IMG/VR virus record: IMGVR_UViG_3300032285_003623 | Span: 1-47,789 of that record | Origin: a virus | Length of the DNA: 47,789 nucleotides | Reading direction: 5' to 3' (one strand) | Shown here: piece after piece, positions 4,220 through 47,789 of the stretch | Position numbering within the stretch: position 1 is the stretch's first letter | Layout of the letters: each line of letters opens with the position of its first letter | Notes under the pieces: generated by a model | Seen by the model: the letters and a program-made list of their open reading frames with translations, nothing else | What the model was told of the DNA's origin: nothing | The model's database searches: none | Program-made: the position numbers and the translations under genes

Positions 4220-4960
4220 ATGGCACAGAATACAGGTAATGCAAGAAATATTCTCGTTGGTGCTTCACCACTATTTCTTTCAACACTAGATATTACATCT
4301 GCAGATTACGGCGACTTCGAAGCTGGAGTTGCTAAAGCAGGTACAGCTACAAAGAATAACAAGGTTCCAGCATTCGCAGCTGCAACAACACAAGCAGCAG
4401 GTACATCTTATACAGATACACTTAACAATCTTGATGCAGGTGTAGGACAAGATGGAGCTTACCGTAACGTAGGTTACACAAACAACGGTCTTCAAGTTAC
4501 ATATAACCCATCATACGGTTCAGTAACAGTTGATCAGCTTCTTGACTCAGCAAAGCTTTTCAAGGAGACAATGGAAGTTCAGATCGCAACAGAAATGGCA
4601 GAAGGTACTCTTGAGAACGTTCTTGCAGTATTTGGTCAGCGTTCATCAACACTTGATACAACAACAGATGCAGCTAAGAAGGTCCTCGGACTTGCTGGTG
4701 GTGCACTTGGTGAGGCTCCAACAGAGCGTCAATTAATTGCAGTTGGACAAGCTCCAACATCTGCAGCAGCTTCAGCTACTGAGCGTGTATATTATGCACG
4801 TCGTGTTCTTTCTGTACAACAGTCACAGTTCTCTTTGGCTCGTAACGCAGCATCAACATTCCCAGTAACATTCCGCTTGCTTCCATCTGGTGACTCAGCT
4901 CACGCAGGTAAGGAATATGGTTTCATCGTAGACCGTGTTCTTTCGAAGCTTCCAGCATAA
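4220..4960 (+). CDS. Major tail (tube) protein
   Basis: 246 residues. Its own promoter and AGGAGG site, strong terminator and CGT-dominated arginine codons mark a very highly expressed gene, as expected for the subunit that polymerises around the tape measure to form the tail tube. Position between the tail terminator and the tail-assembly chaperones fits. The sequence is Ala/Thr-rich, with a central Y-N-P-S-Y-G-S-V-T-V-D-Q-L-L-D segment and a C-terminal beta region (F-P-V-T-F-R-L-L-P). Assignment is from context, length and expression signature. Confidence 0.75.
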   Translation: MAQNTGNARNILVGASPLFLSTLDITSADYGDFEAGVAKAGTATKNNKVPAFAAATTQAAGTSYTDTLNNLDAGVGQDGAYRNVGYTNNGLQVTYNPSYGSVTVDQLLDSAKLFKETMEVQIATEMAEGTLENVLAVFGQRSSTLDTTTDAAKKVLGLAGGALGEAPTERQLIAVGQAPTSAAASATERVYYARRVLSVQQSQFSLARNAASTFPVTFRLLPSGDSAHAGKEYGFIVDRVLSKLPA

Positions 4961-4980
4961 TTAATTAATATTAATTAATA
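4961..4980 (+). repeat. Tandem decanucleotide TTAATTAATA x2
   Basis: Two exact copies directly after the tube stop codon and just before the terminator. A similar TTAATTA run follows the capsid stop (926-935). Possibly simple AT-rich spacer. Confidence 0.6.
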
Positions 4981-5010
4981 GAGCCCCCCAAGAAATTGGG
5001 GGGTTTTCTA
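4981..5010 (+). terminator. Intrinsic terminator after tail tube gene
   Basis: CCCCCCAA (4984-4991), GAAA tetraloop, TTGGGGGG (4996-5003), then TTTTCT. Same design as the terminator after the capsid gene. Confidence 0.92.
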
Positions 5011-5039
5011 TTGCCATGGTATTTTGAATATGATACAAT
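5011..5039 (+). promoter_or_regulatory. Promoter for chaperone / tape-measure operon
   Basis: TTGCCA (5011-5016), 17-base spacer, TGA-TACAAT (extended -10, hexamer 5034-5039). Start near 5046, then AGGAGG at 5057-5062. Confidence 0.75.
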
Positions 5040-5068
5040 AATTAAGACTAAATCCTAGGAGGATTAAA

Positions 5069-5401
5069 TTGGCAACTACAGTATATGATGTTGAAGAAAT
5101 TCAGCTAGCAAATGGCGTTAACGTTAAGCTTAAGCCTTTAACAATTAAAGAGCTTAGAAAGTTTATGGCAGCCATCAGCAAGACAGCGGATGCAACAACA
5201 GAAGATGAAACACTAACAATTCTTATTGATGCATGTGCAGTAGCACTAGAAAAGCAATTACCAGAACTGGTAGTTGATAGAGACGCATTTGAAGATGTTC
5301 TTGATGTACCAACTATTAACCGCATTCTTGAAGTATGTGGTGGAATTAAGATGGACGACCCAAACCTTCTAGCGGCAGCGGTTCTGGCTGGTCAGAACTA
5401 G
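5069..5401 (+). CDS. Tail assembly chaperone, short form (gpG-like)
   Basis: 110 residues from a TTG start with AGGAGG seven bases upstream; no ATG lies near. Acidic helical protein with the opening ... V-N-V-K-L-K-P-L-T-I-K-E-L-R-K-F typical of siphovirus tail chaperone N-terminal domains. Such proteins coat the tape measure during tail assembly and are not in the virion. It lies between the tube and tape-measure genes, and its tail end holds a -1 slippery site, CCCAAAC at 5359-5365, giving the longer form described next. Confidence 0.85.
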   Translation: MATTVYDVEEIQLANGVNVKLKPLTIKELRKFMAAISKTADATTEDETLTILIDACAVALEKQLPELVVDRDAFEDVLDVPTINRILEVCGGIKMDDPNLLAAAVLAGQN

Positions 5402-5727
5402 ATCTAGCCGCTTTAGAGGGAGAAGTTTTTCTTTTAGGTAATTGGAAGAATTACGAAGAACTAGAAGATAATCTTTCAATGCCAGAATTAATAACAACAT
5501 TTAAAGCAATGCAAAAAACTGAAACTGAAAAACGAAAGTTTTTAGCTTCAATTCAAGGAATTGATTTAGGTGAAAATAATAATGAGGAGGGATCTACCTT
5601 CGAAGATATTAAGCGTAGAGCTTTAGGAATAGATGCATCAGCAGACGATGTAGTCTCATTACAAGGTTCATTTGCAGATGATGCAGGGTTTGGTATTGAC
5701 GCTGGTTTAGGATATTCTATAGAGTAA
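5069..5727 (+). CDS. Tail assembly chaperone, -1 frameshift fusion (gpGT-like)
   Basis: Predicted 219-residue product: 99 residues in the first frame, then a -1 shift at CCCAAAC (5359-5365), reading on from 5365 to the TAA at 5725-5727. The new frame opens at 5350, so fusion is possible only in a short stretch containing this heptamer. Across the shift the peptide becomes a Ser-Gly linker (PSSGSGSG), then a conserved-looking segment with F-L-L-G-N-W-K-N-Y-E-E-L, the second chaperone domain. The C-terminal domain has no good ribosome site of its own. In lambda and most siphophages the fusion is made at a few percent and its T domain recruits tube subunits to the tape measure. The tape-measure ATG follows 9 bases after the stop. 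Confidence 0.85.
5359..5412 (+). promoter_or_regulatory. -1 ribosomal frameshift signal
   Basis: CCCAAAC (5359-5365) fits X-XXY-YYZ in the zero frame (CCA-AAC). After a 5-base spacer comes a structure: AGCGGC (5371-5376) pairs with GCCGCT (5407-5412), and inside it GGTTCTG (5380-5386) pairs with CAGAACT (5393-5399). The zero-frame stop (5399-5401) lies within the structure. Confidence 0.85.
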
Positions 5728-5736
5728 CATAGTAAT

Positions 5737-8700
5737 ATGGCAGAAAATAACTTAACGACGTTTATTACCGCCAATGCAGATTTTTCGAGTTTAAGAACTC
5801 AATTAGCTGCAGTTACTGCCCAACTCGTAAAACTTCAAGAAACAACAGTAGGAACTAACGCAAAGCTCGGCAACCAGATTGCCGTAATGAACAAAGCTTT
5901 CGCCGAGACTTTGCGATCCACTGGACAGTATTCAACTCATTTTGTAACATTAAGTTCAGATGTAGAAAAGTTTGGAAAAAACTTAGATACTGGAAAATTA
6001 AAATTAAGTCAATATTTTAGAGTATGGCAAGATCATACTCAAAAGTCAGGCGGATTAATAAAAAACCTTGCTAAACAGCAAGTAATGCTTGAGCAAGCAA
6101 TCGTACAGCCACTTGGTAAAAATGCACAAGGCATAATGCAATACAATGTTCAGGTTGCAAAAGGTCTTGATGAAATAAAAAATAAAACAGCTTTAGCAAG
6201 ACAAGAAGCATCAATTATGAACAAAGTGATGCTTGATGGATCAAATCAATTAATTAACTGGGGTAAAAATACACAGTGGGCTGGACGTCAGCTTACTGTA
6301 GGATTAACTGTCCCACTAGCGGCGTTTGGTGCTGCTGCACAAAAAGCTTTCTTAGATGCAAATACCGAAATGGTAAGATTAACTAAAGTTTATGGCGGAC
6401 TAGCTGCAACATCTTCATCTGAATTAGCAAAAGTACAAAAAGATGTTGCTGCAACAGCAAAGCAAATGGCATCATCATATGGTGTTGCATATAAAGAAAC
6501 TATTGCACTTGCAGCTGATATGGCAGCTACTGGTAAACAAGGTAATGATCTTATTGCTTCTACCACACAAACAACAAGACTTTCAGTCTTAGGTGAAATT
6601 GATAGACAGTCTGCAATGAAAGCAACTCTTGCTATTCAAAATACATTTAAACAAAATACAGATCAATTAACTCAATCTATTGATTTTCTTAACGCAGTAG
6701 AAAACCAGACGTCTACTAGCCTTCAAGATTTAACAGATGCAATTCCAAAAGCTGGCCCAGTAATTCAAGCTATGGGTGGAAGCGTAAAAGATCTTGCTCT
6801 TTATTTAACAGCAATGAAAGAAGGAGGCATTGACGCCTCATCTGGTGCAAATGCACTTAAGTCAGCACTTGCTTCTCTTGTAAACCCAACTAAAGTTGCA
6901 ACAGATATGTTTGCAGGATTTGGCATTGATTTAAAAGGAATTGTTTCAAAAAATGCAGGAGACTTAACAGGAACTATTCTTAACCTTCAAGCAGCATTAG
7001 ATACTCTTGATCCATTAAAGAAACAACAAGCATTAGAACAACTTTTTGGTAAATTCCAATTTGCTCGTATGAATGCTTTATTTTCTAATTTAGGTAAACA
7101 AGGATCTCAAACACTTAAGGTTATGGACCTTATGAAGGCTAGCTCACAAGATTTGGCAAATGTATCTAGTCGAGAATTAAGCATGATGACAGAATCTGCA
7201 TCAGGTAAATATAAAAGAGCTCTTGCAAGTGTTCAAGCAGATCTTGCTCAAGTTGGAAAACAATTTTTAACAATTAGCACATATGTATTAAGAATCGTAG
7301 ATGGAATTGTTAAGTTCTTTGATAAACTTCCAGCACCTATTAAAACAGCCCTAGGCTTCCTTGGTGGACTTACAGCAGTCGCTGGTCCACTCATCATGCT
7401 TACTGGTGTTCTAGGCAACTTTGTTGGATATGTAATTAAAGGAGTTTTCCACCTTAAATCTTTAATTAAGGGTGGACAAGGATTTAAGCTCTTAACACCT
7501 GAAATTGTTGCAGCTATGGAAGCTGGTAAAGGTTTATCTACAACATTTTATAATGATGCAGAAGCAACTAATATTCTTACAGCAGCCGTAGATACATTAA
7601 CACAATCATTTAATAATTTAGAATTAAGAGCAAATGCAGCAAAAGTTGCAATGAATCCAGCAATTACCACTGTTGCAAATAGTGTTATATTGCCAGGACA
7701 AGCTGCAGTAGAATCTGCTTCAGGTAGAGTTGTAGATAAAAATAATCCGTTAGCTGGAAAACCTTATACAAGACAAATGGCTCATTTGATTCCTGCTGCA
7801 AGCGAACAGCCTGGAACAATTTTTGGAGTTGTCCCAAATCCTGGACCAGTAAATGTTAGAATTGGAAAAAATCCACAAGCTTATATGAATTCTGATCTTC
7901 CAAAGATTCCAGGACTTACTTCTATTAATGGTGTATCTACTGGAATTGTTGCAGAAGAAGCTGCAAAATGGCATGCAATGACTGGTGCATTATCAATGCA
8001 ATCAGAGGCAGAGCTAAAAGTATTAAAAACAGAAGTAAATGCAACAGGAACAATTACAAAAGAATTAGCACAATCTTATCAAGCCTTACTTCCAGAATTT
8101 ACTACAATAACAACGTTGGCTGCAGAAGAAACTGCTGCAATTGTTGCAGAGGTTCAAGCAAATAAAATTAGCGTAGAAGCTGCTAGAGCAAAAATTGTCG
8201 CATTAAATGCTGAAGTAGAATCAATGCTTGCAACTACAACTACTCAAGTTGCATCTAATTTAGGCAGAACTGCCAATATAGAAACAGTTCCTTTAACTAC
8301 ACAACCAGCAGTAGATGCAAATGGAAAGTCTAATATGAAAGAATTATTTCATAAAGGAAAAGTTTCTACTCTTGTGGATAAAATTGCTAGAGCATTAGGT
8401 GGAGTAAAAACATCAGGCGCAGGGTATTCAATTCATACAACAACTCCTAAGTTTAATACTGGTGGAATGATTGAAAACTTTAATGCAGGAAAAACACAAG
8501 TATCTGGCCCAGCATCTATTAAATATGATGATCGAATGGGAAGCGTTCCCATAGGTGGATATGTATTAAATCAAGCAGCATCCATGGATCCAAGAAATGC
8601 CCCACTTGTTGCTGCTGCATCTTCTACGTATAATGGTGGAGGACAAATAACCGCATTATTGACTCCAAAAGAAACAGTATTTGGAGCAGGAATTCAAAAT

Positions 8701-11700
8701 AATCCTAAGTTATTATCTGCTGTTCATGCAGCAAATAATGGAACACCGCTACCTCAACATATGGCAGGTGGAAAAATTGGTTTAACAAGAACAAGATATG
8801 GACTGCCAGCACCAACAGAAAAATACTGGAAGACAAGACTTAAAGAATATTTCCAATTTATAAATGATCCAAGATACGAAGAAAATATTCGTATGAGAAT
8901 GATTATGCTAGATGCAGCTGAATTAGCAGATCACATGTCTGTTTCTACTGCAATTGATATTGCAAAAAGTAATTTTGATGACGCTAAATATAAATCTCGT
9001 GGAAGCCAAGATGCATTTATTAGAATAAGACAAATGCAAACAGATATGCTTGAACAGCAATTTGGAGGAAGAGACGTATTAAGATTGGGTGTAGATGCAG
9101 GTGGTCAAGACACAGCAAGAAGCACTGCATTAAATAGAAACTTAAATTCTATTAGAAAATCTATGTTATTAAGAAAAGATTTTGCTTCTATTAAAGATTT
9201 AATTGAGGCAGTTCCAAAAACAACAGGAATAAATAGCCAGGGCGTTCCATATTTAAATGGAAACGTTAGAGGTCATTTAAGCAGAAGAGGAACAATTGCA
9301 GGCGGAGGATCAAGAGGATTCTTTGGAGTTGCTGCAGTAATGCCTCATTCGTTAAACGACTTGGCAGCTAAACTTCAACAAAGAGGATTACTTCCAGATA
9401 TTGTTCATGTAACACAATCAAAAGCAATTAGCGATTTTGAATCTATGATTGAAAAAACTGGCCTTGGAAAACATGTAACTGTAGAAGATATAGCCAAAAC
9501 ATTATCTCATGATACACGATTCCCATCAGCTGCTAATTTAGCAAAAGATCGTATAACGCCTCCAACAAAAGAACAAAGAAGCTTTACAAAAATGTTCATG
9601 GATGCAGTTGCATCTAATAAAAGATGGATGCCTAAAGGCGGTCAATTAATACTTCGTAACCTCGGAGGAATGATTGGCGGAACTATCCGTAGAGGAAAAA
9701 ATAATTATGGAATAATGAATAGTAATCTATTCATGGCTAAAAATCCACAAATTTATAATAGATCATCCCTAGGAATAAATCCAGAAAATTGGTTAAAGCA
9801 TGGAATGACAGAAGCAGAAATGCTTGCTGCACAAAGAGAGTTTGCTAAATATCCAAACGGACAAAAGCCTACTATTTATAATCCAGCAAAACCTGCTGGA
9901 AAGTTCCCACTTCCTGGTTCTTATTATCAAGATCTTGCAAATACTGATCCTCTTCATGGAGCTCTGCAAATTGGTAGATATCAAGGAGCTATGGGAATAA
10001 GAAGCCAACATGTGGCTCCAAGAGTTATTTATAGCAATCAATTAGGATTTATGAAAAGAGGAAGTGCTCCAGCTTTTGAAACTGGAACACTTGAATCTAG
10101 AGCTAGATCAGCATTATTTAATTATATGCAAGGAGATTATGCTGCTATAGATGATCCTGCAGTTCAATCATATTTATCAGCACTTAGAACAAAATTTACA
10201 GGAACACTACATCGTGGAGTAAAACATACATCAAGCCTGCCACCAGTTATTAGAGAATTAATAAATGCTGGAAGATGGGATGATTTAGTTGGTAAAGAAT
10301 TTATCATGCGTCGCTCTTCTTGGAGTACAAATAAAGATACAGCGGTTGGATTTGGCGATGTATTATTAACTGCAAATGTAAAAAATAGAAATGCAGTTCC
10401 TGCTTCACAGATTTTCCCAGAATTAACATTTAATACCCCTCAAGGCCCTGTAAAGGTCAACGAGAGCGAAGTATACATGGGAGGTAAGTTTAAGGTTGTA
10501 AGAGCCTCTAAGGGGCATCTACAGCTTCAGGCAGTATATGATGCAGCTCGTGAAAACGGCGGACCAGTAAACGCTGGAAGACCTTACCTTGTAGGAGAAA
10601 AAGGCCCAGAGTTATTTGTTCCTAAAAATAGTGGCGGAATAATTCCAGGATACGCTTTGGGTGGCAGAATAACTTCTGCTAAACATAACTATGGACTTAT
10701 GGGAACCATAGGTAAAGGTATTTTGGCACAAGGTCCAGGATTGGTTGGTTCTCTTTTAGGAGGAAAATTACTAAGCTCACTAGGAGTACCATACGGAGAT
10801 TTAATTGGAAGCATAGCTGGCTGGTCTGCTGGCGCAGCAGCTGGAGAAAAAGTATTAGGTCATTTTGCAAAAGGAGCTGTAGAAGCAGGGGCTAAAGCAG
10901 AAACAGCCGCAGCAAAAACTGGATTACTTGCAAGAGCTGGTAAACTTCTTCCCGATGTTTTAAAGGGCACAGTATTTGGAATAAGTAAATTAAATATTGC
11001 ACTGACAGTAGCATCAGTAGCAGCATCTGCAGCTTATAGTTCTTGGAAAAATCATAAAGAGACTTTAAGACTTCAAGCTTCAGCATTTGGATTATCTGCT
11101 GCAGCTGCTCAAAAAGCAGGACTTAAGTATAAAGATTTTAATCAAACGATTAAAGACGTAATGGAAAATGCAAAACTTTCTAAAGAGAATGGAAAAGGTT
11201 TATTTGAAAACTTTGCGTCATCTGGTACTGGATTAAATCTTACAATAACACAATACAAAGCTTTGAAAAAAGAAGTTCAAGCAACTTATGCAGATCAAAT
11301 CAAGTTATTCAATCAAAGTAAAAAATCAGATGTTAATAGTATTGCAGTAGAACTTAAAACTCAATTCATGGCTGCTGGAATGTCAGCAGAAGATGCAACA
11401 AAGAAAATTTATGCAATGATTGCAGCATCTAATAAACAAGCTCAATCAGGTTCTGCAACAATCGCAAATAAAGATTTTACTAACATTAAAACTCCAAAAG
11501 ATGTTGGAGTGGCTGGCGTAAAGGGATTTGATACAGCTTCCAGACTAGGTGATGTAACAGCACAAGCAGCAGCACTATATACAGCAATAAATGGAATTGA
11601 TACTGGAATTGCAGGAATTTCTGCAGAAGCAGAAAAAACTGCCAGAGCAGCTAACAAAACAGTTGATTCAGCACAAATTCAAGCAGATGCTATTAAAGCA

Positions 11701-14700
11701 CAGATGGAAGCTATTGGAACTGGCCACCAAAAGATTTCTCTTGATTTAATTAATGAGCTTGCTAAAACAAATCCAGCTATTCGTGAATTTGCAAGCACTC
11801 AAGATACAGTCTTAAGTTTATGGCAAAAAATTAGAATTGAAGCTCACGGATATACTGGTGATTTAACTCAATTAAATGCAGAACAAGTAGATGCGCTTTA
11901 TAAACTTCAAGCAGCAGTAGATGCTGGCGTTGCTGCAGCAACTGGTGCAAAAAATGGAATAATGGCAAAACAAACTGCAACATTAAAGGCAGATATAATA
12001 TTGCAAGAAAAATATGCCAAAGCAGCAATGGGACAATCTGTCAAATCTCAAATTAGTGCAAGAGATCAAATTGCATCACTACAAAAACAAATTGATGCAA
12101 ATAATAAACTTGCAGATGCAAGATTAAAAGCATTAGATGCAGCAAAAGCAGAATCTGATTTATCTAATCAAATTGCTAAAAAGCAGGCAGAATATCAGTC
12201 AGCCTTAGCAACTGGAAATACTGCACAAGCTCAACAGGCAAGCCTTGATATACAAGGACTTCAAAGCCAAATGCAATATGATGCACAACGCAAAAATATT
12301 CAAGATGCAACTACTGCAAAAAATGCTCCACTTGAAGCTCAAGTTGCTTCACTTCAAGCAAATCAACAAAAACTTTCAGATACAGCAGCTCTCGCAAGCG
12401 AAAATCTATCTAAGCTAAATACTAAAATAGGAAAAGAAAAAGAAGGTATTGATAATGTAAATACCGCTTTAGCAAATCTTAAGTTAGCATTAATTAATAA
12501 TAAAACAGATTTAGATGGATTAATGAAGAAATACCCAGATCTTTATAAGAGCCTACTTGGCAAATTAACAGAAGCTATGACCAATGAGGGATTAATTCCA
12601 AAGGGTGTTAAAAATGCTAATGATTATGCAGCTGAAGCATTTAAAACAATGAATGATGCATTTTCTAATTTTAGTGCAACAAATGTAACTATCGTTACGC
12701 AAAAAGCTATCTTAGATAAAAATGGTGGAAAAAATACACTTGATACTAGCCCATCAGTATTAGCGGCAAATGACAAGCTACCAAAAGCTGGAGACAGCGT
12801 AACTAGAGTAGACTCATCTGGAAAGAAAACAACAGTCACGCTAACACCAAAAGACCCTGGTGTTAGAAATCCAAATCTACCTCACCTTCCAGCTTCAGGA
12901 AAAGAAGGTTGGTTCCACTGGAATAAATTTACTTCAGGTCAAGAGGTAACTTCAAATGCAATTGCAGCAGCAGGAATAAAATCTCATACACCTTATCAAG
13001 GACTAGATGGCAACTGGTACGTTTGGATGGGTGAATCAACTGTTGGATTAGTATTTAAAGATAAAGGTGGTAAAAAACAGTTAGGTCAATGGTCTGCATT
13101 TAATGATAATGGGCAAGTTATTGCTTACGCTAAAGGTGGACAAATTGGAAACTATGATGGTGGAGGTAATGTAAAGGGCCCAGGAACTGCAACTTCAGAT
13201 TCAATACCTGCATACTTATCTAATGGAGAATATGTAATTCGTGCATCATCTGTATCTAAATACGGAAAAGATTTTTTTGATGGATTAAATACACAAAAAT
13301 TTGCAACAGGAGGACATGTTCAAAATTTTGTTAGTGGCGGAGCAGTTGTTGAAATTGGAAGAGCAATATTTAATTCTCTTAAAAATGTTCCTCATATCAT
13401 TGAAGCATTAAAGTTTTTAAAAATTGGAACACACAATTCAACTAATCCAAATTTAGCATCGTCTTTATTACATCCAAATGATTACGCTGCAGGAAAAGAA
13501 CAAACATTAGGTAATTTTACGCACTTTGCTTTAAACTCAGAATATCAAGCTAATCAAAGATATGGATCAAATACATATAAAACTAAATTAACTCCAGCCG
13601 CAATAGCTGCAATCTTAAAGAGCAAGGGTTTTGCAAATTCTTCTCAGATGGCAAAATTTGGATATCCATATGGAATGAATGGTGCAAAATTCTCAGATCA
13701 AGCCATACAAGATGCAATTAATGCAGGTTATATCGGAGCAAAATATGTTGTAGGAAATCCAAAAGTTGATCAATTCTCTAATTTCTTTACTGGAATAAAA
13801 GGACATCCACTAGGACAAATAAAGGGACACGCACTTGGCGGTATGATTCCAAAATTTGGATTTGGTGGATTCTTAGGACTTTTTGCAAAGAAGATTCCTT
13901 CAATAATGGCATCCTCTGCACTATGGCAAACAATGGAAGAAGGAGAAAAAGCACTTTCATTAAAATGGGGTGCAAATCAAAATGCTTCAGGATTCTCAAA
14001 ATGGTCTAGAGCTTTAGCAAGAGTTGCATATGATTCATTACAAGGTGGAGTCTCAGGATTACCATTTGGAGGCGGAGCAGGTTTTGTAGGAGGATCAGTT
14101 GCAGGTCTTGTAGAAGGTTTAGTTGGTCTAGCTAAAGATGGATCACAATTTGGAGTTAAGGGTGGATCACACTCCACAGATAAAGGATTTAGTGCTAAAA
14201 AAGAATTAGCAAATATGAGCATTGCTAACTCATTAAAGAATATTGCAGTCACTGCTGGACTATCAGTACCAATGGGATTTGCTGGGCATTTAGCTGGTCC
14301 TTTATTAAAGAAAATAACACAGCCAGCATTGAATAAGGTTGTATCATCAAATCTTGCACAAAAACTTACACCAAAAGATCTTTCTACATTAAGTAATACA
14401 CAATATAAAAAGCTTGTAAATTCTATATACAAAAGAAATAATTTAAAAGTAACAATTGGTAAAGATGAACACATCTTGCCAACATATACTCTAGGAAAAA
14501 CAAAATTTGCATTCCAGGGCAGTGGTCAGGACATAGCTGGACTTGCTGGTTCTGGGGTTGAAATTGTTCCAACTACACCTATAGGAATACTTCAAGCTGC
14601 TTTAAAGTTAAATCCAAAAGATAAAACATTAAAGTCATTATTAAATAATTTCAGTAAAAATAAGATTTCAGATAAAGAAATTAAATTCTTAGATAGTATG

Positions 14701-16101
14701 CTTGCCTCTGTTGCAATAAACAAGCGTGGTGGAGTATCTTCAATAGAAACAACTGATGGCTTTGCAATGCTATTAGCATCTTTAAACAAAAATAAAAATG
14801 CTCAAAAAATAATAACATATAAAACTAATAAATATTTAAATGCTGTAAAGAATAAAGATTTACTTAGAAAACAAGAAGCTGCAGCAGGAGCAGGAAATCC
14901 AAATTGGAATGATATTATTGCAGATCCTTCAACTGTTCCAGTAATACATTCAACTAAATTCCCAATAATTCGTGATAAGAGCGGTAATGTTGTTCTCAAT
15001 ACTTATGGAGATCATAATATGGGAACGGATCAAGCTTATCCAAGAGCTTCATTGCACTTTACATTAGAAGCACCAGTTCAATCTCATTTATTTGGACAGT
15101 GGGCACCTACACAAAATAAAATTGTTTCTCCTTTAAATTCAATGATAGCAGATAACGGGCTGCCTTATAATTTAAATTCAACAGATACTTGGTGGATGAG
15201 AAATCCAGGACAAGCCTTAAAGATATCAAATTCTAGTGTTATTAAACCTTTTACAGATATGATTGCTTATAGAAAAGAATTAATATCAAGAGGTTTAATA
15301 GATCCAAGTAAACTAACTCCACTTGTTGCTGTAGATCCTGCAACAAAAGAAATTTTACATGTAAATAAAAAACTTTATGGTTCTGTTGATAGACTGCAAA
15401 TATCTAGAATGCTTAAAGATTTAGATTTAGGGTATAGCGTAAAACCAGGAGAAGAAACTGCAGCATTAGATAGAATTGCAATGCAGCTTGCTAAAAAACA
15501 AATAGGTATAAATTCTAACCCAGTAAACCTAGAGCAACATGGACTTGGAAATACTGAAAGACAAAATTATATATACAAACTTTCAGATATGTTAGGTTTA
15601 AGTTCAGAAATTCATAGTGGTTCAGTTCCAGAAAGAGCTGAGTCAAGTTTTGCAAAAAATAATAAAGGTAATAGAGAAATACCATATGGAAGAGTAACCG
15701 ATAGTATTGAGGCATTAAGAATGCTTGCAGCTAACGGAGGGTTTGGCACTTATTTAAAGAGACTTCCAAATAAAGATGACTTTAATTGGGCACAAGGTGG
15801 ATTAATTAATATCCCTAAATTTGAAAATGGAATTAATATGGTCCCTGCAAATATGCTTGCTATGCTTCACAAAAATGAAGCAGTGGTTCCTGCTAACATG
15901 AATCCATTTAATCCTAACGCTAATAATGCTACAATGAGTGGAGCAACTTATAATATTACTAATAATATTAGCGGATATACAGGAGATATAAATCAACTTT
16001 CAGATGTTGTTACTAGAAAAACAATTACTGCAATTAAAACTATGGATTCTACCAATGCAAAAATGGTGGGAACCTCAAAGAATGTGAGTATTAGAGTATG
16101 A
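5737..16101 (+). CDS. Tape measure protein with embedded ADP-ribosyltransferase-like domain
   Basis: 3,454 residues, the largest gene here; it sets tail length and is normally ejected with the DNA. Residues ~180-500 match TP901-type tape measures (V-P-L-A-A-F-G-A-A ... A-M-K-E-G-G-I-D-A-S-S-G-A-N-A-L). A hydrophobic segment lies at ~535-573, others near 1,675-1,770, and a coiled coil at ~2,080-2,265. Familiar tape-measure pieces include V-G-E-K-G-P-E-L-F-V-P near 1,625 and S-D-S-I-P-A-Y-L-S-N-G-E-Y-V-I-R near 2,490. Residues ~1,455-1,592 look like an ADP-ribosyltransferase: R1493 in TLHRG, S-W-S (1528-1530) followed by A-x-x-F, and E-S-E (1576-1578) followed by G-x-K-F-K-V. Other unknown globular modules are separated by glycine linkers. 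Weak ribosome site; coupled to the chaperone stop. Confidence 0.9.
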   Translation: MAENNLTTFITANADFSSLRTQLAAVTAQLVKLQETTVGTNAKLGNQIAVMNKAFAETLRSTGQYSTHFVTLSSDVEKFGKNLDTGKLKLSQYFRVWQDHTQKSGGLIKNLAKQQVMLEQAIVQPLGKNAQGIMQYNVQVAKGLDEIKNKTALARQEASIMNKVMLDGSNQLINWGKNTQWAGRQLTVGLTVPLAAFGAAAQKAFLDANTEMVRLTKVYGGLAATSSSELAKVQKDVAATAKQMASSYGVAYKETIALAADMAATGKQGNDLIASTTQTTRLSVLGEIDRQSAMKATLAIQNTFKQNTDQLTQSIDFLNAVENQTSTSLQDLTDAIPKAGPVIQAMGGSVKDLALYLTAMKEGGIDASSGANALKSALASLVNPTKVATDMFAGFGIDLKGIVSKNAGDLTGTILNLQAALDTLDPLKKQQALEQLFGKFQFARMNALFSNLGKQGSQTLKVMDLMKASSQDLANVSSRELSMMTESASGKYKRALASVQADLAQVGKQFLTISTYVLRIVDGIVKFFDKLPAPIKTALGFLGGLTAVAGPLIMLTGVLGNFVGYVIKGVFHLKSLIKGGQGFKLLTPEIVAAMEAGKGLSTTFYNDAEATNILTAAVDTLTQSFNNLELRANAAKVAMNPAITTVANSVILPGQAAVESASGRVVDKNNPLAGKPYTRQMAHLIPAASEQPGTIFGVVPNPGPVNVRIGKNPQAYMNSDLPKIPGLTSINGVSTGIVAEEAAKWHAMTGALSMQSEAELKVLKTEVNATGTITKELAQSYQALLPEFTTITTLAAEETAAIVAEVQANKISVEAARAKIVALNAEVESMLATTTTQVASNLGRTANIETVPLTTQPAVDANGKSNMKELFHKGKVSTLVDKIARALGGVKTSGAGYSIHTTTPKFNTGGMIENFNAGKTQVSGPASIKYDDRMGSVPIGGYVLNQAASMDPRNAPLVAAASSTYNGGGQITALLTPKETVFGAGIQNNPKLLSAVHAANNGTPLPQHMAGGKIGLTRTRYGLPAPTEKYWKTRLKEYFQFINDPRYEENIRMRMIMLDAAELADHMSVSTAIDIAKSNFDDAKYKSRGSQDAFIRIRQMQTDMLEQQFGGRDVLRLGVDAGGQDTARSTALNRNLNSIRKSMLLRKDFASIKDLIEAVPKTTGINSQGVPYLNGNVRGHLSRRGTIAGGGSRGFFGVAAVMPHSLNDLAAKLQQRGLLPDIVHVTQSKAISDFESMIEKTGLGKHVTVEDIAKTLSHDTRFPSAANLAKDRITPPTKEQRSFTKMFMDAVASNKRWMPKGGQLILRNLGGMIGGTIRRGKNNYGIMNSNLFMAKNPQIYNRSSLGINPENWLKHGMTEAEMLAAQREFAKYPNGQKPTIYNPAKPAGKFPLPGSYYQDLANTDPLHGALQIGRYQGAMGIRSQHVAPRVIYSNQLGFMKRGSAPAFETGTLESRARSALFNYMQGDYAAIDDPAVQSYLSALRTKFTGTLHRGVKHTSSLPPVIRELINAGRWDDLVGKEFIMRRSSWSTNKDTAVGFGDVLLTANVKNRNAVPASQIFPELTFNTPQGPVKVNESEVYMGGKFKVVRASKGHLQLQAVYDAARENGGPVNAGRPYLVGEKGPELFVPKNSGGIIPGYALGGRITSAKHNYGLMGTIGKGILAQGPGLVGSLLGGKLLSSLGVPYGDLIGSIAGWSAGAAAGEKVLGHFAKGAVEAGAKAETAAAKTGLLARAGKLLPDVLKGTVFGISKLNIALTVASVAASAAYSSWKNHKETLRLQASAFGLSAAAAQKAGLKYKDFNQTIKDVMENAKLSKENGKGLFENFASSGTGLNLTITQYKALKKEVQATYADQIKLFNQSKKSDVNSIAVELKTQFMAAGMSAEDATKKIYAMIAASNKQAQSGSATIANKDFTNIKTPKDVGVAGVKGFDTASRLGDVTAQAAALYTAINGIDTGIAGISAEAEKTARAANKTVDSAQIQADAIKAQMEAIGTGHQKISLDLINELAKTNPAIREFASTQDTVLSLWQKIRIEAHGYTGDLTQLNAEQVDALYKLQAAVDAGVAAATGAKNGIMAKQTATLKADIILQEKYAKAAMGQSVKSQISARDQIASLQKQIDANNKLADARLKALDAAKAESDLSNQIAKKQAEYQSALATGNTAQAQQASLDIQGLQSQMQYDAQRKNIQDATTAKNAPLEAQVASLQANQQKLSDTAALASENLSKLNTKIGKEKEGIDNVNTALANLKLALINNKTDLDGLMKKYPDLYKSLLGKLTEAMTNEGLIPKGVKNANDYAAEAFKTMNDAFSNFSATNVTIVTQKAILDKNGGKNTLDTSPSVLAANDKLPKAGDSVTRVDSSGKKTTVTLTPKDPGVRNPNLPHLPASGKEGWFHWNKFTSGQEVTSNAIAAAGIKSHTPYQGLDGNWYVWMGESTVGLVFKDKGGKKQLGQWSAFNDNGQVIAYAKGGQIGNYDGGGNVKGPGTATSDSIPAYLSNGEYVIRASSVSKYGKDFFDGLNTQKFATGGHVQNFVSGGAVVEIGRAIFNSLKNVPHIIEALKFLKIGTHNSTNPNLASSLLHPNDYAAGKEQTLGNFTHFALNSEYQANQRYGSNTYKTKLTPAAIAAILKSKGFANSSQMAKFGYPYGMNGAKFSDQAIQDAINAGYIGAKYVVGNPKVDQFSNFFTGIKGHPLGQIKGHALGGMIPKFGFGGFLGLFAKKIPSIMASSALWQTMEEGEKALSLKWGANQNASGFSKWSRALARVAYDSLQGGVSGLPFGGGAGFVGGSVAGLVEGLVGLAKDGSQFGVKGGSHSTDKGFSAKKELANMSIANSLKNIAVTAGLSVPMGFAGHLAGPLLKKITQPALNKVVSSNLAQKLTPKDLSTLSNTQYKKLVNSIYKRNNLKVTIGKDEHILPTYTLGKTKFAFQGSGQDIAGLAGSGVEIVPTTPIGILQAALKLNPKDKTLKSLLNNFSKNKISDKEIKFLDSMLASVAINKRGGVSSIETTDGFAMLLASLNKNKNAQKIITYKTNKYLNAVKNKDLLRKQEAAAGAGNPNWNDIIADPSTVPVIHSTKFPIIRDKSGNVVLNTYGDHNMGTDQAYPRASLHFTLEAPVQSHLFGQWAPTQNKIVSPLNSMIADNGLPYNLNSTDTWWMRNPGQALKISNSSVIKPFTDMIAYRKELISRGLIDPSKLTPLVAVDPATKEILHVNKKLYGSVDRLQISRMLKDLDLGYSVKPGEETAALDRIAMQLAKKQIGINSNPVNLEQHGLGNTERQNYIYKLSDMLGLSSEIHSGSVPERAESSFAKNNKGNREIPYGRVTDSIEALRMLAANGGFGTYLKRLPNKDDFNWAQGGLINIPKFENGINMVPANMLAMLHKNEAVVPANMNPFNPNANNATMSGATYNITNNISGYTGDINQLSDVVTRKTITAIKTMDSTNAKMVGTSKNVSIRV

Positions 16102-16784
16102 CAATGACATTGCCTTTAGGGTCAGCTATCTATTTGGATAGCACATATAATGCTGCAACTCCAGTATGGAATGCAATATCTGAACATAATAGAGCACCAA
16201 TTTCTGTAGATGTAATGAGAATTGAAAAATCTCAAAGAATGGCAAATGGCACATTAAGAAAGATATTTATTGCAGATAAAAAAACAATAAGTACAAGCTG
16301 GACAATGCTGCCATCATACTCAACAATGACTGTTGACGGAAAATGGGGAGCACTTGATATTAAATCTTTTTATGAAAATCAAGGAAAAGGTGTAGTTAGA
16401 TTAAAGATTTCTCCTAATAATACCACAGACAGAGAACAAACTATTTATATGGCATTTACATCAGCTTCATTTACGATGGTCAAAAGAAATGTAAAGACTG
16501 GAACAACATTTAAAAATGCTACAGTAACTGCTATAAACTATGCAACTGGAGTAACAACATATACTGCATCAAATCAATTTGCAGCAGGAGACAAAGTCAC
16601 TATCACAGGTGCAACTTTTCCAGCATATAACGGAACTTTTACAATAGCATCTGCAACAACTACAGCATTTACTGTAGCTGGAACTGTAGCTGGAACACCA
16701 ACAACATCTAAAGCAGTAGCTGTTACAGCATTACCAGACGCACAAGAATTCTGGGACGTATCTATCACACTGGAAGAAGTATAA
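16098..16784 (+). CDS. Distal/minor tail protein with inserted beta domain
   Basis: 228 residues; ATG overlaps the tape-measure stop (ATGA). The outer parts (residues ~1-130 and the end, W-D-V-S-I-T-L-E-E-V) look like a distal-tail protein that links tube and tip. Residues ~135-215 differ: a Thr/Ala-rich beta segment (F-A-A-G-D-K-V-T-I-T-G-A ... Y-N-G-T-F-T-I-A) resembling small Ig-like or adhesion modules often spliced into tail proteins. The next gene starts on the last base of its stop codon. The tail location is clear from context; the exact part is inferred. Confidence 0.6.
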   Translation: MTMTLPLGSAIYLDSTYNAATPVWNAISEHNRAPISVDVMRIEKSQRMANGTLRKIFIADKKTISTSWTMLPSYSTMTVDGKWGALDIKSFYENQGKGVVRLKISPNNTTDREQTIYMAFTSASFTMVKRNVKTGTTFKNATVTAINYATGVTTYTASNQFAAGDKVTITGATFPAYNGTFTIASATTTAFTVAGTVAGTPTTSKAVAVTALPDAQEFWDVSITLEEV

Positions 16785-19700
16785 TGATTTCGGCAACAAA
16801 CGCTTTATCATATATAAATCAATCACAATCATTCAAAATGCTTGAGGGATGTTGGGTTGAATATAATATGAATGATTTAATTGATGGGGTATCAATTACA
16901 GCTCCAGATGGAGTTATTACTCAAAAGCTTACAGCTCCAGCTGATCAAGGCGGGTATGAATATAAACCTTTTGAAAAAATATTTCCAATAACTAGCATAA
17001 TAGATCCTAGAAGACCAAAATCAGCAGGAATTCAATATATGATTTCTGGGGATCCAAGTATTACACAAACTTTAAAAGATGGAATTGGCTCCTATGCTAA
17101 ATATTCATCATCACAATCTTTTTCAAAAAGACTATATTTTTCTAGTATTAAAACTGCATACAAGTATTGGGTAACACCAAAAGCAGGATCAGATAAATCT
17201 TTATCTAATTGTATACTTACAGTTTCATATCCAGCAGCAAAGACTGCAGTAGCTAATAAAATAACTATTAAATTTGAAACCTCACATTCAAAGCCAACTT
17301 CATGGAGCTTAAAAATGCTTGATTTGACGGGATCTGAATCGATAGTTTATAACGGATTAACATGCGGTGACAACGGAGTAGTAAATTTATATTATAATGG
17401 AAACACCTGGACAGAAACAGAGTTAGATACTCCTTCGGCTGGTTTAAACTTAAGTGGTTTAAAGCTGCAAATAAACTCCATTGATACAGCTAGTGGGTAT
17501 TTAGGTATAATAGAAATAGCAGCAAAATATGTTGTTGATATATCTCAAAATTTAAAAAGTATAAGATTAAGTCAAACAGCATCAGATTCCGCTGCTGAAT
17601 TAGTTCCAGTAGGAAATGTTACAGCAAATTCATTATCACTGTCTTTATTTTCTTATGATCAAATGTATTCTGTATATGATAAATCAACAGCATTTGATAA
17701 GACTAAATTAAATTTATATAAAAATGTAATACTAAGACCTTATGTTTTAATAGAATCAGAAAAAATAAACTTAGGAAAATTTTATACAGATAGCTTTACA
17801 ACAGGTGAATTTGGAGATATTTCTATAGTTGCACTTGATGGAGCAAGAGAGCTCCAATATATTAAGCCGCCAGACATTATAACTAAAGACATGTCCTCTG
17901 TTGCAATTATTAGAAGATTGCTAGATTCAGTAGGTTTTACTAATTATCACTTTAATCTTGCAGATGATGATTCAGCTACAATAAAACCTCTGTATTGGTT
18001 TACAGATCCAAATAAGACAGTGTGGCAGCATATACAGGATTTGTGCCAAGATACTCAAATGATTGCATCATTTGATAATAATGATATATTACAATTTTAT
18101 CCAAGAGATTATATTTTTAAAAATAAAAGTATTCAGGCTTCTTTTAGATCAAAGTCACATACTGGAAGTTCTAATTTACCAAACATTGCAACTATGTCAA
18201 TTGAAAATGTCCCATCAGTAAAAGCTATTAAAGTTTTATACAATGCACAACTAAGTTCATCATACATACAAAATGCAGATCCTTTATATTCATCACCAGT
18301 AGTAACTTTAGGTGCTGCAGCACTAACTGTAGATTTGGGTCCAGTTGAAAGTGCATATCTAACTCCATCTGATTCAATGTATGCTCCAAAAGGAATTGTA
18401 AACTTAGAGCCAGTTATTACAAGCGGGGAAGCAAAGCAGCTTTACTCCTATTCAGGATACCTGGTAATACAAAAAGAAGTTATAGAATATGATGCAATAG
18501 GATATTCTTATCAGCCAATTGATACTACTCAGGGTGTCAAATATATGTGGATGACATCAGAATCTGATGTTCAAAAACATCAGGGTCTAGCCTTGCCAAA
18601 TACATTTACGGCAACTGGACAATATAGAATAAAAAATAGAAATGTGTTTAACACAGTTGATTCTACAGATACAGCATCATTAACACATATTGCTACTAAT
18701 ACAGATGCCCTTGCTGCAGAATGGGAAGCAAGAACATTAAATATTACAACACAAACACCAGGTGCTGTAGATTCTAATCTTTTTACATTAAAAGATATTA
18801 AAGTAACTACAACTACATTACCAAATGGAGTAAAGCAGGTAGATCATACATCACATAATTTATTAAATTCAATATCTAAATCAATGATGACAGTATTTTC
18901 ACCAAATGGAACTCCAGTTGTAAGTACTGACCCAGCAGTTCCAGATAGCTATATTCCAAATAATGTATATTCTTTTGTAGCTGCAGATGCTAAATATTTA
19001 GATGGAGAAAATTTTGTTATTGGAACAAACATGTATTTCCCATTTGTAGTTGATTCAAAAACTGGTAATGCCACGGGAGATCAAAGAACTATGGCAGGAC
19101 TAGCATTTTCTTTGAATGCAGATAATACAAGTGGTTATTTGTTGACAATTCAAACTACTCAAAATTATCAAAATGATAAAAGCTACAGAGATGTTAATTT
19201 TTATAAAATTGTAAATGGCAAATTAGTCCCATTAAAAAATTCACAAAAAGATACAGATGGAACTATTATAACAAATATAAATGGTGGAAAGCTTTATCGA
19301 GTGGATATTCGTGCTAATTATTCTATTCCTCAAAATGGAACAAAAAAAGTATTGGCATTAAAGATTTTATTAAACAATAAAACATTTGCAGTGGTTGATA
19401 CAGATCCATTAAACTTAACTGAAAGAATTGCATTAGTTTCAGGTGCTGGCACCTGCTCATTTGATTATGTTTATACTTCTTCAATAACAAAAGAAGAATT
19501 TTTATCAAATTCAGGATTTGATTTATATAAAGGATTTTTAGGTGGACAATCTACATTGATTAAAAACTTTGCAGATTTTATATTTAATCAAGGACAAAAA
19601 GATAAAAGCCCAATGTGGTTAAAAGAATTTGGTCCAGTTGCAAGAGAGTTAAGAAGAATACAAACACGATATTCAAGTCCAGGTTTTCCCAGATACCCAA

Positions 19701-20212
19701 ACCTTGTTCAAAATCCAGATGTTACTATAGTTGGTTCCGCCCTAGATTCATTTACAATGGATACCTATATCATGAATAATACTGGAGTATTTACTGATCT
19801 TGCAAATGGACAAGAAAAACAATTTATTATTGTAGGAGATTATGTATCTCAATCAGATCCATTTGAATATACTGATCCAGATTTGACTGATGCAGAAAAA
19901 GCAGAACAAGTAGGTTTTCAATCTACATGGATTCAAACAGAATCAGATGCAAAAGCTTTAGCAAAATGGATGAAGGATAAATGGTCACATCAACAAAAAG
20001 TGTTGACAATGGATGTATTTGTTAACCCCTTGCTTCAAATCGGAGATATAATTGAAGTATCCTATCCAGAGAGTAGAGTTTATTCCTCAGAAGACTCTGG
20101 AATTCCAACAGGATATTCAGCTGAAAAATTTGTAATATTATCATTAGATACCACATACGATAAAGATACTCAGCCAACTACAACTATTGTTTGTAGGTCG
20201 ATTTTTGCTTAA
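16784..20212 (+). CDS. Tail tip hub / minor tail protein, large
   Basis: 1,142 residues; its ATG shares a base with the previous stop (TAATG). The middle (residues ~270-480), with S-L-S-L-F-S-Y-D, G-K-F-Y-T-D-S-F and W-Q-H-I-Q-D-L-C-Q-D-T, resembles tail-tip hub proteins. Residues ~725-905 form a beta-rich region (M-A-G-L-A-F-S-L-N ... Y-R-V-D-I-R-A-N-Y) like concanavalin/laminin-G folds, a plausible glycan-binding module. The C-terminus (V-F-V-N-P-L-L-Q-I-G-D-I-I-E-V) again looks like a hub barrel. It sits after the distal tail gene as expected. No lysozyme or peptidase motif is visible. Role well supported by context; domain names are tentative. Confidence 0.65.
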   Translation: MISATNALSYINQSQSFKMLEGCWVEYNMNDLIDGVSITAPDGVITQKLTAPADQGGYEYKPFEKIFPITSIIDPRRPKSAGIQYMISGDPSITQTLKDGIGSYAKYSSSQSFSKRLYFSSIKTAYKYWVTPKAGSDKSLSNCILTVSYPAAKTAVANKITIKFETSHSKPTSWSLKMLDLTGSESIVYNGLTCGDNGVVNLYYNGNTWTETELDTPSAGLNLSGLKLQINSIDTASGYLGIIEIAAKYVVDISQNLKSIRLSQTASDSAAELVPVGNVTANSLSLSLFSYDQMYSVYDKSTAFDKTKLNLYKNVILRPYVLIESEKINLGKFYTDSFTTGEFGDISIVALDGARELQYIKPPDIITKDMSSVAIIRRLLDSVGFTNYHFNLADDDSATIKPLYWFTDPNKTVWQHIQDLCQDTQMIASFDNNDILQFYPRDYIFKNKSIQASFRSKSHTGSSNLPNIATMSIENVPSVKAIKVLYNAQLSSSYIQNADPLYSSPVVTLGAAALTVDLGPVESAYLTPSDSMYAPKGIVNLEPVITSGEAKQLYSYSGYLVIQKEVIEYDAIGYSYQPIDTTQGVKYMWMTSESDVQKHQGLALPNTFTATGQYRIKNRNVFNTVDSTDTASLTHIATNTDALAAEWEARTLNITTQTPGAVDSNLFTLKDIKVTTTTLPNGVKQVDHTSHNLLNSISKSMMTVFSPNGTPVVSTDPAVPDSYIPNNVYSFVAADAKYLDGENFVIGTNMYFPFVVDSKTGNATGDQRTMAGLAFSLNADNTSGYLLTIQTTQNYQNDKSYRDVNFYKIVNGKLVPLKNSQKDTDGTIITNINGGKLYRVDIRANYSIPQNGTKKVLALKILLNNKTFAVVDTDPLNLTERIALVSGAGTCSFDYVYTSSITKEEFLSNSGFDLYKGFLGGQSTLIKNFADFIFNQGQKDKSPMWLKEFGPVARELRRIQTRYSSPGFPRYPNLVQNPDVTIVGSALDSFTMDTYIMNNTGVFTDLANGQEKQFIIVGDYVSQSDPFEYTDPDLTDAEKAEQVGFQSTWIQTESDAKALAKWMKDKWSHQQKVLTMDVFVNPLLQIGDIIEVSYPESRVYSSEDSGIPTGYSAEKFVILSLDTTYDKDTQPTTTIVCRSIFA

Positions 20213-35661: not shown

Positions 35662-36483
35662 ATGAAAAAACATGTTATTGCACCTCAAATAGTTGTATAT
35701 AAAAACATATTTAAAAACAGTAAAGAACTAATTAATCTTTTAGAAAATGATAACAAAGATTTAATTTTTGAGTCCTGGAGAGATTGGTATAGTCAAGGAC
35801 ATAGAAAAGATGCTGTATTTAATAAAAGCATGGAGCCAAAAAACAAAAACAATGAGGATTCTGTTAAAGAGCATCTGTATTTAAAAGAAATATGTGATGC
35901 TGTTGATTTTATAAAAAGTGATTATTTTTCTGATTTTGAAAAAGAAAAAGGAGTTTGGCCAAGCTTTATAACCAATTGGGGTAAGGTCAAAGAAAATACA
36001 GATAATTATTATATAGATTATTTCAGATACGATCATAATAAAAATCACTATGGTAGCGATAAAATGTTGATGGACTATCATGTTGATGAATTTCCAATTT
36101 TAAATCAAATAAAAACTAGACGACATGTTATAACAATTAACTTTTATTTAAATGATGAGTATGATGGTGGAGAAATATGTGCATACGATTCAGTATCTAA
36201 AAAAAGCTATAGGTACAAGCCTACGCCTGGAGATGCTGTAGTCATGCCTTCAACAGAACCATTTTATCATGGTGTAAAAGAATTTAAAGGTCACAATAGA
36301 TACTTTTTAAGACTTTTTGTTGATTATGAGGTAGACAAGGACAACGTTTGGACACAAAAGTATAGTCTTAATGACAATGATACAAAAAATGAAATTGAAA
36401 AACAAGAAGATGAATATGTTAAAAAAGATTTACAGCTTATTGTAATATCTTCTTCTGAAGAAATAGTTGAAATAGAGGATTGA
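35662..36483 (+). CDS. 2-oxoglutarate/Fe(II)-dependent oxygenase
   Basis: 273 residues. The prolyl-4-hydroxylase-like core keeps the iron triad H140-V-D142 and H203 and the 2-oxoglutarate-binding R213, ten residues after H203. The surrounding text is typical: Y-L-N-D-E-Y-D-G-G-E-I-C, P-T-P-G-D-A-V-V-M-P-S, F-Y-H-G-V. It would hydroxylate a substrate with O2 and 2-oxoglutarate. Substrate is unknown: proteins, nucleic acid bases and small molecules are all known for phage members. The C-terminal ~45 residues are an acidic tail. It lies between recA and a putative nuclease, oddly for a metabolic enzyme. Confidence 0.82.
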   Translation: MKKHVIAPQIVVYKNIFKNSKELINLLENDNKDLIFESWRDWYSQGHRKDAVFNKSMEPKNKNNEDSVKEHLYLKEICDAVDFIKSDYFSDFEKEKGVWPSFITNWGKVKENTDNYYIDYFRYDHNKNHYGSDKMLMDYHVDEFPILNQIKTRRHVITINFYLNDEYDGGEICAYDSVSKKSYRYKPTPGDAVVMPSTEPFYHGVKEFKGHNRYFLRLFVDYEVDKDNVWTQKYSLNDNDTKNEIEKQEDEYVKKDLQLIVISSSEEIVEIED

Positions 36484-36484
36484 T

Positions 36485-36790
36485 TTGTCAGAAAGATCTG
36501 AAATAAAAAGAGATAATGCTAAAGCACAAAAAAATTCAGGCAGAGGCGATTATCAAAAAGGTGATGCACAATGGAAACAGTTTGTTGTTGATTATAAAGA
36601 GGCAACTGCATCCTTTACTTTAAACAAACAGGTATGGTCTAAAATATGTACAGATACATTTAAGGTTAATAGAGACATGCATCCAGCTTTAAAGATAATA
36701 ATAGGAAATGAATCAAAGGTCAGGCTTGGTATAATAGAATGGACAGTGTTAGAAGAACTAATAGAATTTTGGGAGAAGAATAATGTATGA
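36485..36790 (+). CDS. Putative PD-(D/E)XK-like nuclease
   Basis: 101 residues from TTG 36485 (GAGG about seven bases upstream; no nearby ATG). The segment K-G-D-A-Q-W-K-Q-F-V-V-D-Y-K-E-A (residues ~26-41) has the spacing of a PD-(D/E)XK active site, G-D ... D-x-K, within a beta hairpin, followed by K-Q-V-W-S-K-I. Phage Holliday-junction or end-processing nucleases of this size exist. No clear family name; assignment is by motif and by its place among recombination genes. The stop overlaps the next ATG. Confidence 0.4.
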   Translation: MSERSEIKRDNAKAQKNSGRGDYQKGDAQWKQFVVDYKEATASFTLNKQVWSKICTDTFKVNRDMHPALKIIIGNESKVRLGIIEWTVLEELIEFWEKNNV

Positions 36791-37475
36791 GGTAGATGTA
36801 TACAAAGATAACGATAGAATGCCAAGTGCAAAAATTAGACAGCTTAAAACAAAAAGAGACTGGATGCATGAAGTTACTTACAACTGCACACCAGTTACGC
36901 TTATGAATACTTTAGGCTATGGAATATATTTTGAAGAAGACATTTCTTTTTCATGGGATGGAGACAGAAAAAATCCAGCGGAAGCAAGAATTGGAAAGCA
37001 GTTTGTCTGGTCTGGCAGAGGAGAAGGAACTGTAAGCTTTAATACTAATTTGATATTTAAGACGGATAAAGATGTCAGTATGCTAACTCTTCCAGTGCCT
37101 AATCAATTTATTGAGGGTGCGGAAGTTATATCAACTATACTTTCTACATCTTTATTTACAGGAGCTTTCCCTATAGTGTGGAAACTTCATCAACCAAATA
37201 AAGAATATTTTGTTCCCGCAGGTACAAATGTAGCCTGCTTATTACCAATTTCAGTAGCTCAATTTCAAAATTCAAATATAAACGTAAGTAATCAAGTTTT
37301 TGATCCATCAAAAAGAATTCAAGATAGGCCAGAATATCTTAAAAAAATACAAGAGTATGTTGAGCAAGGTAAAAGAATTAGAATGTATAAAAAAGCTATC
37401 AATGAAAATGGTGAAAAAATTGGTGAGCATGAGGTTGAAAACTTAACAATGAATGTTACGTATAAAAATGACTAG
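36783..37475 (+). CDS. Unrecognised protein, DUF6065-like pattern
   Basis: 230 residues. Features: C-T-P-V-T-L-M-N-T-L-G-Y-G near 35-47, S-F-S-W-D-G, then G-Y/W-rich beta segments, P-V-W-K-like text and P-A-G-T-N-V-A. This reminds me of the DUF6065 family seen in cyanophages and marine phages, whose function is unknown; the match is from memory and should be treated as weak. A basic helical C-terminus follows. Starts inside the previous gene (8-base overlap) and overlaps a microprotein gene at its end. Confidence 0.5.
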   Translation: MYEVDVYKDNDRMPSAKIRQLKTKRDWMHEVTYNCTPVTLMNTLGYGIYFEEDISFSWDGDRKNPAEARIGKQFVWSGRGEGTVSFNTNLIFKTDKDVSMLTLPVPNQFIEGAEVISTILSTSLFTGAFPIVWKLHQPNKEYFVPAGTNVACLLPISVAQFQNSNINVSNQVFDPSKRIQDRPEYLKKIQEYVEQGKRIRMYKKAINENGEKIGEHEVENLTMNVTYKND

Positions 37476-47738: not shown

Positions 47739-47789
47739 AGCCCCGAACTCATAATTCGGTAATCGTAGGTTCGAGTCCTACCTGCCGCA
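47716..47789 (+). tRNA. tRNA with CAT anticodon, probably elongator Met
   Basis: Full cloverleaf: acceptor GCGGCAG / CTGCCGC (7 pairs), D stem GCTT/AAGC, anticodon stem CCGAA/TTCGG with loop CTCATAA, T stem GTAGG/CCTAC with TTCGAGT loop, discriminator A. The G1-C72 pair argues against initiator Met. Elongator Met is favoured; an Ile tRNA with modified C34 cannot be excluded. The window ends at the discriminator base, so an encoded CCA cannot be checked. The first 23 bases overlap the carbamoyltransferase gene. Confidence 0.92.

Follow-up and report, generated by a model that had tools for sequence, protein, structure and literature searches.

The tail tape measure protein (TMP) encoded in a viral record of 47,789 bases, which over its whole length is called the window here, carries a predicted ADP-ribosyltransferase (ART) domain in the middle of its chain, within a slot whose content is exchanged between related phages. 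This arrangement is probably best explained by an interchangeable effector that is ejected with the TMP of a siphophage and modifies host or defence proteins before phage genes are expressed. The features on which the analysis is based are as follows (window coordinates, strand).

4220..5727, +, Ig-domain/major tail protein and two small genes (phrog_2175, phrog_10504, phrog_10474; Bmoc order)
5737..16101, +, tail tape measure protein, 3454 aa (open frame, PF10145, phrog_10030, Bmoc-like gene order)
6451..7050, +, PF10145 phage minor tail/tape measure core, residues 239-438 (Pfam E=6e-26)
7357..7413, +, residues 541-559, the one strong transmembrane-like stretch in the TMP (Kyte-Doolittle scan)
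9682..10548, +, exchangeable cassette slot, residues 1316-1604 (blastp of TMPs)
10099..10512, +, predicted ART domain, residues 1455-1592 (AF2 model, Foldseek, ModA/ModB profile match)
10213..10215, +, R1493 codon, ART R motif in T-L-H-R-G (conserved 41/41)
10318..10326, +, S1528-W-S1530 codons, ART S-x-S motif (conserved 41/41)
10462..10470, +, E1576-S-E1578 codons, ART E-x-E motif of the arginine-specific type (both E conserved 41/41)
10549..10659, +, right border of the slot, linker with G-G-P-V-N-A-G-R-P-Y-L-V-G-E-K-G-P-E-L-F-V-P, residues 1605-1641
16098..20212, +, minor tail protein genes downstream of the TMP (phrog_1194/584, phrog_10359)

The tape measure protein and its genome context

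An initial annotation of this DNA had placed an ART-like segment inside a tape measure protein. The computational analysis bears out this assignment: the frame at 5737..16101 is a genuine TMP, which contains the PF10145 core, matches phrog_10030 with E=1e-118, is the longest open reading frame and lies between the tail tube/chaperone genes and the tail tip genes. The order of genes, from the Ig-domain/major tail protein through two small genes and the TMP to the minor tail proteins, is shared with Streptomyces phage Bmoc (Stanwilliamsviridae), and by this order the two small genes 5′ of the TMP occupy the tail assembly chaperone position. An ART label for Bmoc itself was rejected, as its protein is a plain 2,110-aa TMP with neither an ART nor a kinase-like domain.

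The terminase shares about 63% identity with the terminase of Streptomyces phages with genomes of about 130 kb, and the closest cultured phages by the TMP N-terminus are Streptomyces and Gordonia phages. The record therefore probably represents part of a larger siphophage of the actinobacteriophage-like kind, for which we infer an actinobacterial host. Scanning bacterial and archaeal genome contigs with the ART and with the TMP N-terminus revealed no relative and hence no link to a prophage or host. The G+C content of the window is about 30–40%, the nearest cultured relatives infecting the high-G+C genera Streptomyces and Gordonia; this content suggests an A+T-rich actinobacterial host, perhaps from freshwater.

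Elsewhere in the window, a DUF6065 gene adjoins a 2OG-Fe(II) oxygenase gene (35662-37475), and the 3′ end of a gene for a nodulation-type (Nol-like) carbamoyltransferase (46290-47789) overlaps a predicted tRNA-Met that lies right at the end of the record. Within the TMP, residues 2900-3340 (window 14434-15756) form another globular-looking region, with the motifs V-I-H-S-T and R-A-S-L-H-F-T-L, that is present in few relatives only (L059, L065 and L080). Its top Pfam match, NrdI (E=0.003), is below the cut-off; the region may be a further cargo domain.

Fold, catalytic motif and conservation of the ART domain

The domain had been annotated with R1493 in T-L-H-R-G, with S1528-W-S1530 followed ten residues on by A-V-G-F, and with E1576-S-E1578 followed by G-x-K-F-K-V. 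All three motifs are present in the TMP frame at these positions, and the domain runs from residue 1455 (base 10099) to residue 1592 (ending at base 10512), as described. The last element was found as M-G-G-K-F-K-V at residues 1581-1587. A-V-G-F does follow S1530, but at residues 1536-1539, that is six to nine residues past the serine and not ten residues on.

For structure prediction, AlphaFold2 was supplied with an alignment of 25 sequences including that of the window. The resulting model is of moderate confidence (pLDDT 73.7, pTM 0.64). When it was checked for the split beta-sandwich of ARTs, the predicted fold was that of an ART, in agreement with the initial annotation. A Foldseek search against the PDB gave 49 matches with E<=1e-3, the best at 5.3e-5 with probability 1.00, and the best 50 matches listed were all ARTs, among them iota-toxin Ia, CDTa, C3, C2-I, Certhrax, Vis, XopAI and Tre1; TM-scores to known ARTs were about 0.4–0.54. 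Of the significant viral matches that bear a name, most were ARTs from phages or other viruses or were MuF/head proteins; the viral matches were headed by phage ARTs of the ModB-like and VIP2-like types. As a control, a kinase-like module from related TMPs was taken through the identical procedure and returned kinases, not ARTs; the modelling and fold search therefore discriminate.

Profile comparison by hhalign aligned 122 columns of the ART with relatives of T4 ModA/ModB (P=0.0013), placing L-H-R-G on L-Y-R-G, S-x-S on S-x-S and E-S-E on E-Q-E, whereas the unrelated kinase-like family used as a control gave P=0.35. Because the hhalign probability is just 18.6%, which is low though the motifs are in register, we regard this comparison as support and not as proof, and the weight is carried by the structure. 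Pfam gave sub-threshold matches to DRAT (PF07357, E=0.087) for the window and to ADPrib_exo_Tox (PF03496, E=0.05) for relatives. No match to these two ART families reached the curated cut-off, and the domain is therefore assigned to neither, although its fold is still that of the ART superfamily. Searches of PDB sequences with the single sequence or with profiles found no ART because the domain is too diverged. Taken with the predicted fold, the occurrence of R, S-x-S and E in the order and spacing of the R-S-E class indicates that residues ~1455-1592 are an ART domain of this class, of the E-x-E form.

E-x-E is the form found in arginine-directed ARTs, while C3 enzymes carry Q-x-E. In the TMP domain, E and not Q stands two residues before the catalytic E (E1576 and E1578, in 41/41 copies), which, judged by sequence, points to arginine-directed mono-ADP-ribosylation.

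Relatives of the ART were found at 48 loci in IMG/VR, with identities from ~80% down to 34%. R1493, S1528, S1530, E1576 and E1578 were invariant in 41/41 distinct homologous copies, so that the R, S-x-S and E-x-E motifs on which the annotation had relied are conserved throughout. G1494, W1529, F1539, G1582, G1583 and F1585 were likewise identical in all 41 copies; the residue between the two glutamates varied (S, Q, K, N, H or E). This conservation is not an artefact of the search, because none of the search patterns included R1493, the loci L045-L057 were found with a pattern lacking the glutamates, and nine ART copies were recovered by patterns from the TMP N-terminus alone. Chance or pattern bias as the source of motif conservation was rejected by means of this last sample. 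The median dN/dS of the ART was 0.12 across 88 pairs. The catalytic motif is thus intact and the domain is under purifying selection; a degenerate, non-catalytic remnant appears unlikely, since the residues of the motif never change and dN/dS is this low.

Among 50,697 cultured phage records, no relative of the ART was detected at E<1. A tblastn match in Klebsiella phage KLB28 (30.6%) covered only the downstream linker V-G-E-K-G-P-E-L-F, had no ART motifs and was rejected as a homologue.

An exchangeable slot within the tape measure protein

At least 593 relatives of the TMP N-terminus (residues 150-500) were counted in IMG/VR. When the TMP of the window was compared by blastp with TMPs that lack the ART, homology extended from residue 1 to ~1020–1315, broke off, and in most cases resumed at residue 1605. 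The cleanest pairs (L096, L097 and L131) were aligned through residue 1315 and again from 1605, and in these TMPs about 500 residues, comprising a ~320-aa kinase-like domain and a ~145-aa module termed M3, replace the 289 residues that make up the ART and its leader in the window. The linker motif at the right border is common to TMPs without the ART and to unrelated TMPs of many phages. The module upstream of the ART (residues 1023-1315, window 8803-9681) occurs with either cassette (L096, L097, L131, L144) and is therefore exchanged independently. Apparently complete related TMPs range from 2149 to 4190 aa, with N-termini that are 50–80% identical. Should the additional modules represent folded cargo, the length of the tail may not be readable from that of the TMP in this group.

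To survey the content of the slot, 53 distinct related TMPs were drawn by their N-terminus alone, regardless of the ART. Nine contained the ART and 30 a kinase-like domain in that position; six had only M3 and eight none of these. The segment is thus both present and absent among relatives of the annotated TMP, and another enzyme-like domain can stand in its position. ART and kinase-like domain never occurred together in 81 distinct long TMPs (38 with ART, 29 with the kinase-like domain). On a tree of the N-termini the ART label needs nine changes (gain or loss), at least six of which are forced by supported branches, from which it follows that the slot was refilled or emptied on repeated occasions in evolution. 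Because near relatives share labels, the cassette counts are non-independent events, and the forced changes on the tree are the independent ones. The borders of the cassette, its mutual exclusion with the kinase-like domain and its repeated exchange were in this way established by computation.

The kinase-like domain (~320 aa) was examined in L075:12478-13437 and 25 relatives (alignment A3). K69, E80, D150, N157 and D165 are invariant, as are the motifs F-V-K-P, A-E, R-G-D-x-D-L-x(4)-N and D-x-G. In the model (pLDDT 81) all Foldseek matches listed were kinases, the top one being the HipA-like CtkA with a probability of 0.98–0.99 and an E-value of only 3e-3. On the basis of this model the domain is probably kinase-like. 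The cultured phage collection had no relative of it. M3 (residues 1652-1796 of the L073 TMP, with homologues) mostly comes after the kinase-like domain, but six TMPs have it alone.

Two protein-modifying folds alternate in the slot, which argues for a role in host takeover or counter-defence rather than in structure. With slightly better than even confidence, we propose that the TMPs of this large group of siphophages, which are uncultured and actinobacteriophage-like, contain a dedicated effector port, a linker-bordered slot reloaded with ART or kinase-like enzymes, so that the tail would deliver an interchangeable first-strike enzyme.

Delivery of the ART and comparison with known systems

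For several siphophages it is established that the TMP, housed in the tail tube, exits ahead of the DNA. From its location in the TMP, the ART should be present in the virion and be injected. Packed in the tail tube, the TMP would be the first molecule out at infection, and the ART domain would ride with it, to lodge within the host membrane or at its inner face. The tail tube may offer little room for a folded ART, and unfolding or stretching is probably needed; the mid-chain domain would pass the tube in this state and refold on the inner side. There it would take host NAD+ and mono-ADP-ribosylate host (or defence) proteins, presumably on arginine, and this modification would precede the expression of any phage gene, as with T4 Alt from the head. 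The few TMP copies per virion would be enough, since the cargo is an enzyme. The slot would serve as a general effector port, into which sister phages load the kinase-like domain.

Alternatively, an active ART might work late in the producing cell, for example in host modification during assembly or in superinfection exclusion, its delivery being incidental. As a late structural protein the TMP is, by general knowledge, abundant late, and the T4 annotation has the phage ARTs ModA and ModB acting in the infected cell after their expression. We nevertheless consider this unlikely: there is no obvious reason for fusing a late enzyme to a tail protein and keeping it there, the alternative occupant of the slot is again an enzyme-like fold, always inside the TMP, and known TMP-fused enzymes act at the time of entry. 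It is quite improbable, too, that the ART stays in the envelope, where it would modify envelope or membrane proteins and aid the channel or block secondary infection, as NAD+ is generally known to be scarce outside the cytoplasm. This possibility would fit a TMP with a single strong transmembrane-like segment (residues 541-559) and the entry channel that TMPs are thought to make in the envelope (PMC10770324). An ART fold kept for structure or binding, with no catalysis, might be favoured as filler by length rules of the TMP, and cassettes of unrelated fold do share the slot; however, five motif residues that are invariant in 41/41 copies down to 35–45% identity, next to a variable residue between the glutamates, and the dN/dS of 0.12 make this very unlikely. 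A chance likeness of motifs in a domain that is not an ART can practically be dismissed despite curated families giving no match above threshold, as conservation, profile comparison and fold search agree.

If the preferred reading of an effector ejected with the TMP is correct, a tail-borne ART represents a second route beside ARTs injected from the head (Alt, MuF fusions), open to siphophages without ART head cargo and acting with the first molecule out of the virion. TMPs are annotated as a matter of routine and then receive no further attention. If the variable middle parts of these proteins serve as effector slots, many unexplained differences in length conceal anti-host or anti-defence enzymes. 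Virion-delivered ARTs (Alt, MuF-ART) and TMP-fused enzymes are already known; within the open-access papers covered, none described an ART that lies inside a TMP and in an exchangeable slot, a scope that leaves its novelty short of proof.

T4 Alt is carried in the virion and injected (PMC9503650, PMC5512222). Alt, ModA, ModB and other phage ARTs of the Alt/VIP2 family have R-S-E motifs of the E-x-E type like the TMP domain, and ModA/ModB align with it in register. In contrast, Alt is a separate protein inside the head while the ART described here is an internal segment of the TMP, and it is too diverged for detection by BLAST or Pfam. MuF-ART/VIP2-like fusions of actinobacteriophages and polyvalent proteins likewise carry an ART on a virion protein and are predicted to be injected (PMC7302621, PMC9503650, PMC5512222). 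In these fusions the ART is joined to head or portal-proximal proteins and not, as here, to the TMP; neither of two published NAD/ART surveys mentions tape measure proteins. Polyvalent proteins (Iyer et al. 2017) unite a number of effector domains in a single injected chain, to which processing domains of the metallopeptidase type are typically added. The present TMP has an ART together with further modules, and a Pfam search found no peptidase in it.

Enzyme domains fused into TMPs have precedents. In Thermus phage P23-45, gp96 is a virion RNA polymerase fused to the TMP of a siphophage and delivered at infection (PMC10770324, accessible text). The polymerase is N-terminal, whereas the ART is mid-chain, and, unlike the TMP described here, gp96 is not described in that text as having an exchangeable slot. 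The TMP of mycobacteriophage TM4 carries a peptidoglycan hydrolase motif (PMC1796659), which is also an enzymatic motif inside an actinobacteriophage TMP but belongs to a cell-wall enzyme acting outside the cytoplasm, whereas the ART is of the type that modifies host proteins. Tme and Sle1, TMP-related effectors of contractile injection systems (CIS) in Actinobacteria, are modular with exchangeable functional domains, and conformational adaptation to the lumen of the CIS tube has been proposed for Sle1 (PMC11126660, PMC13277306); the ART in the TMP would adapt to the tube lumen in a similar way. These systems are not phages, and their functional domains are C-terminal (an endonuclease in Tme), with no ART mentioned. 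A TMP with a reloadable slot would be a plausible ancestor for these TMP-like, exchangeable-domain effectors of actinobacterial CIS.
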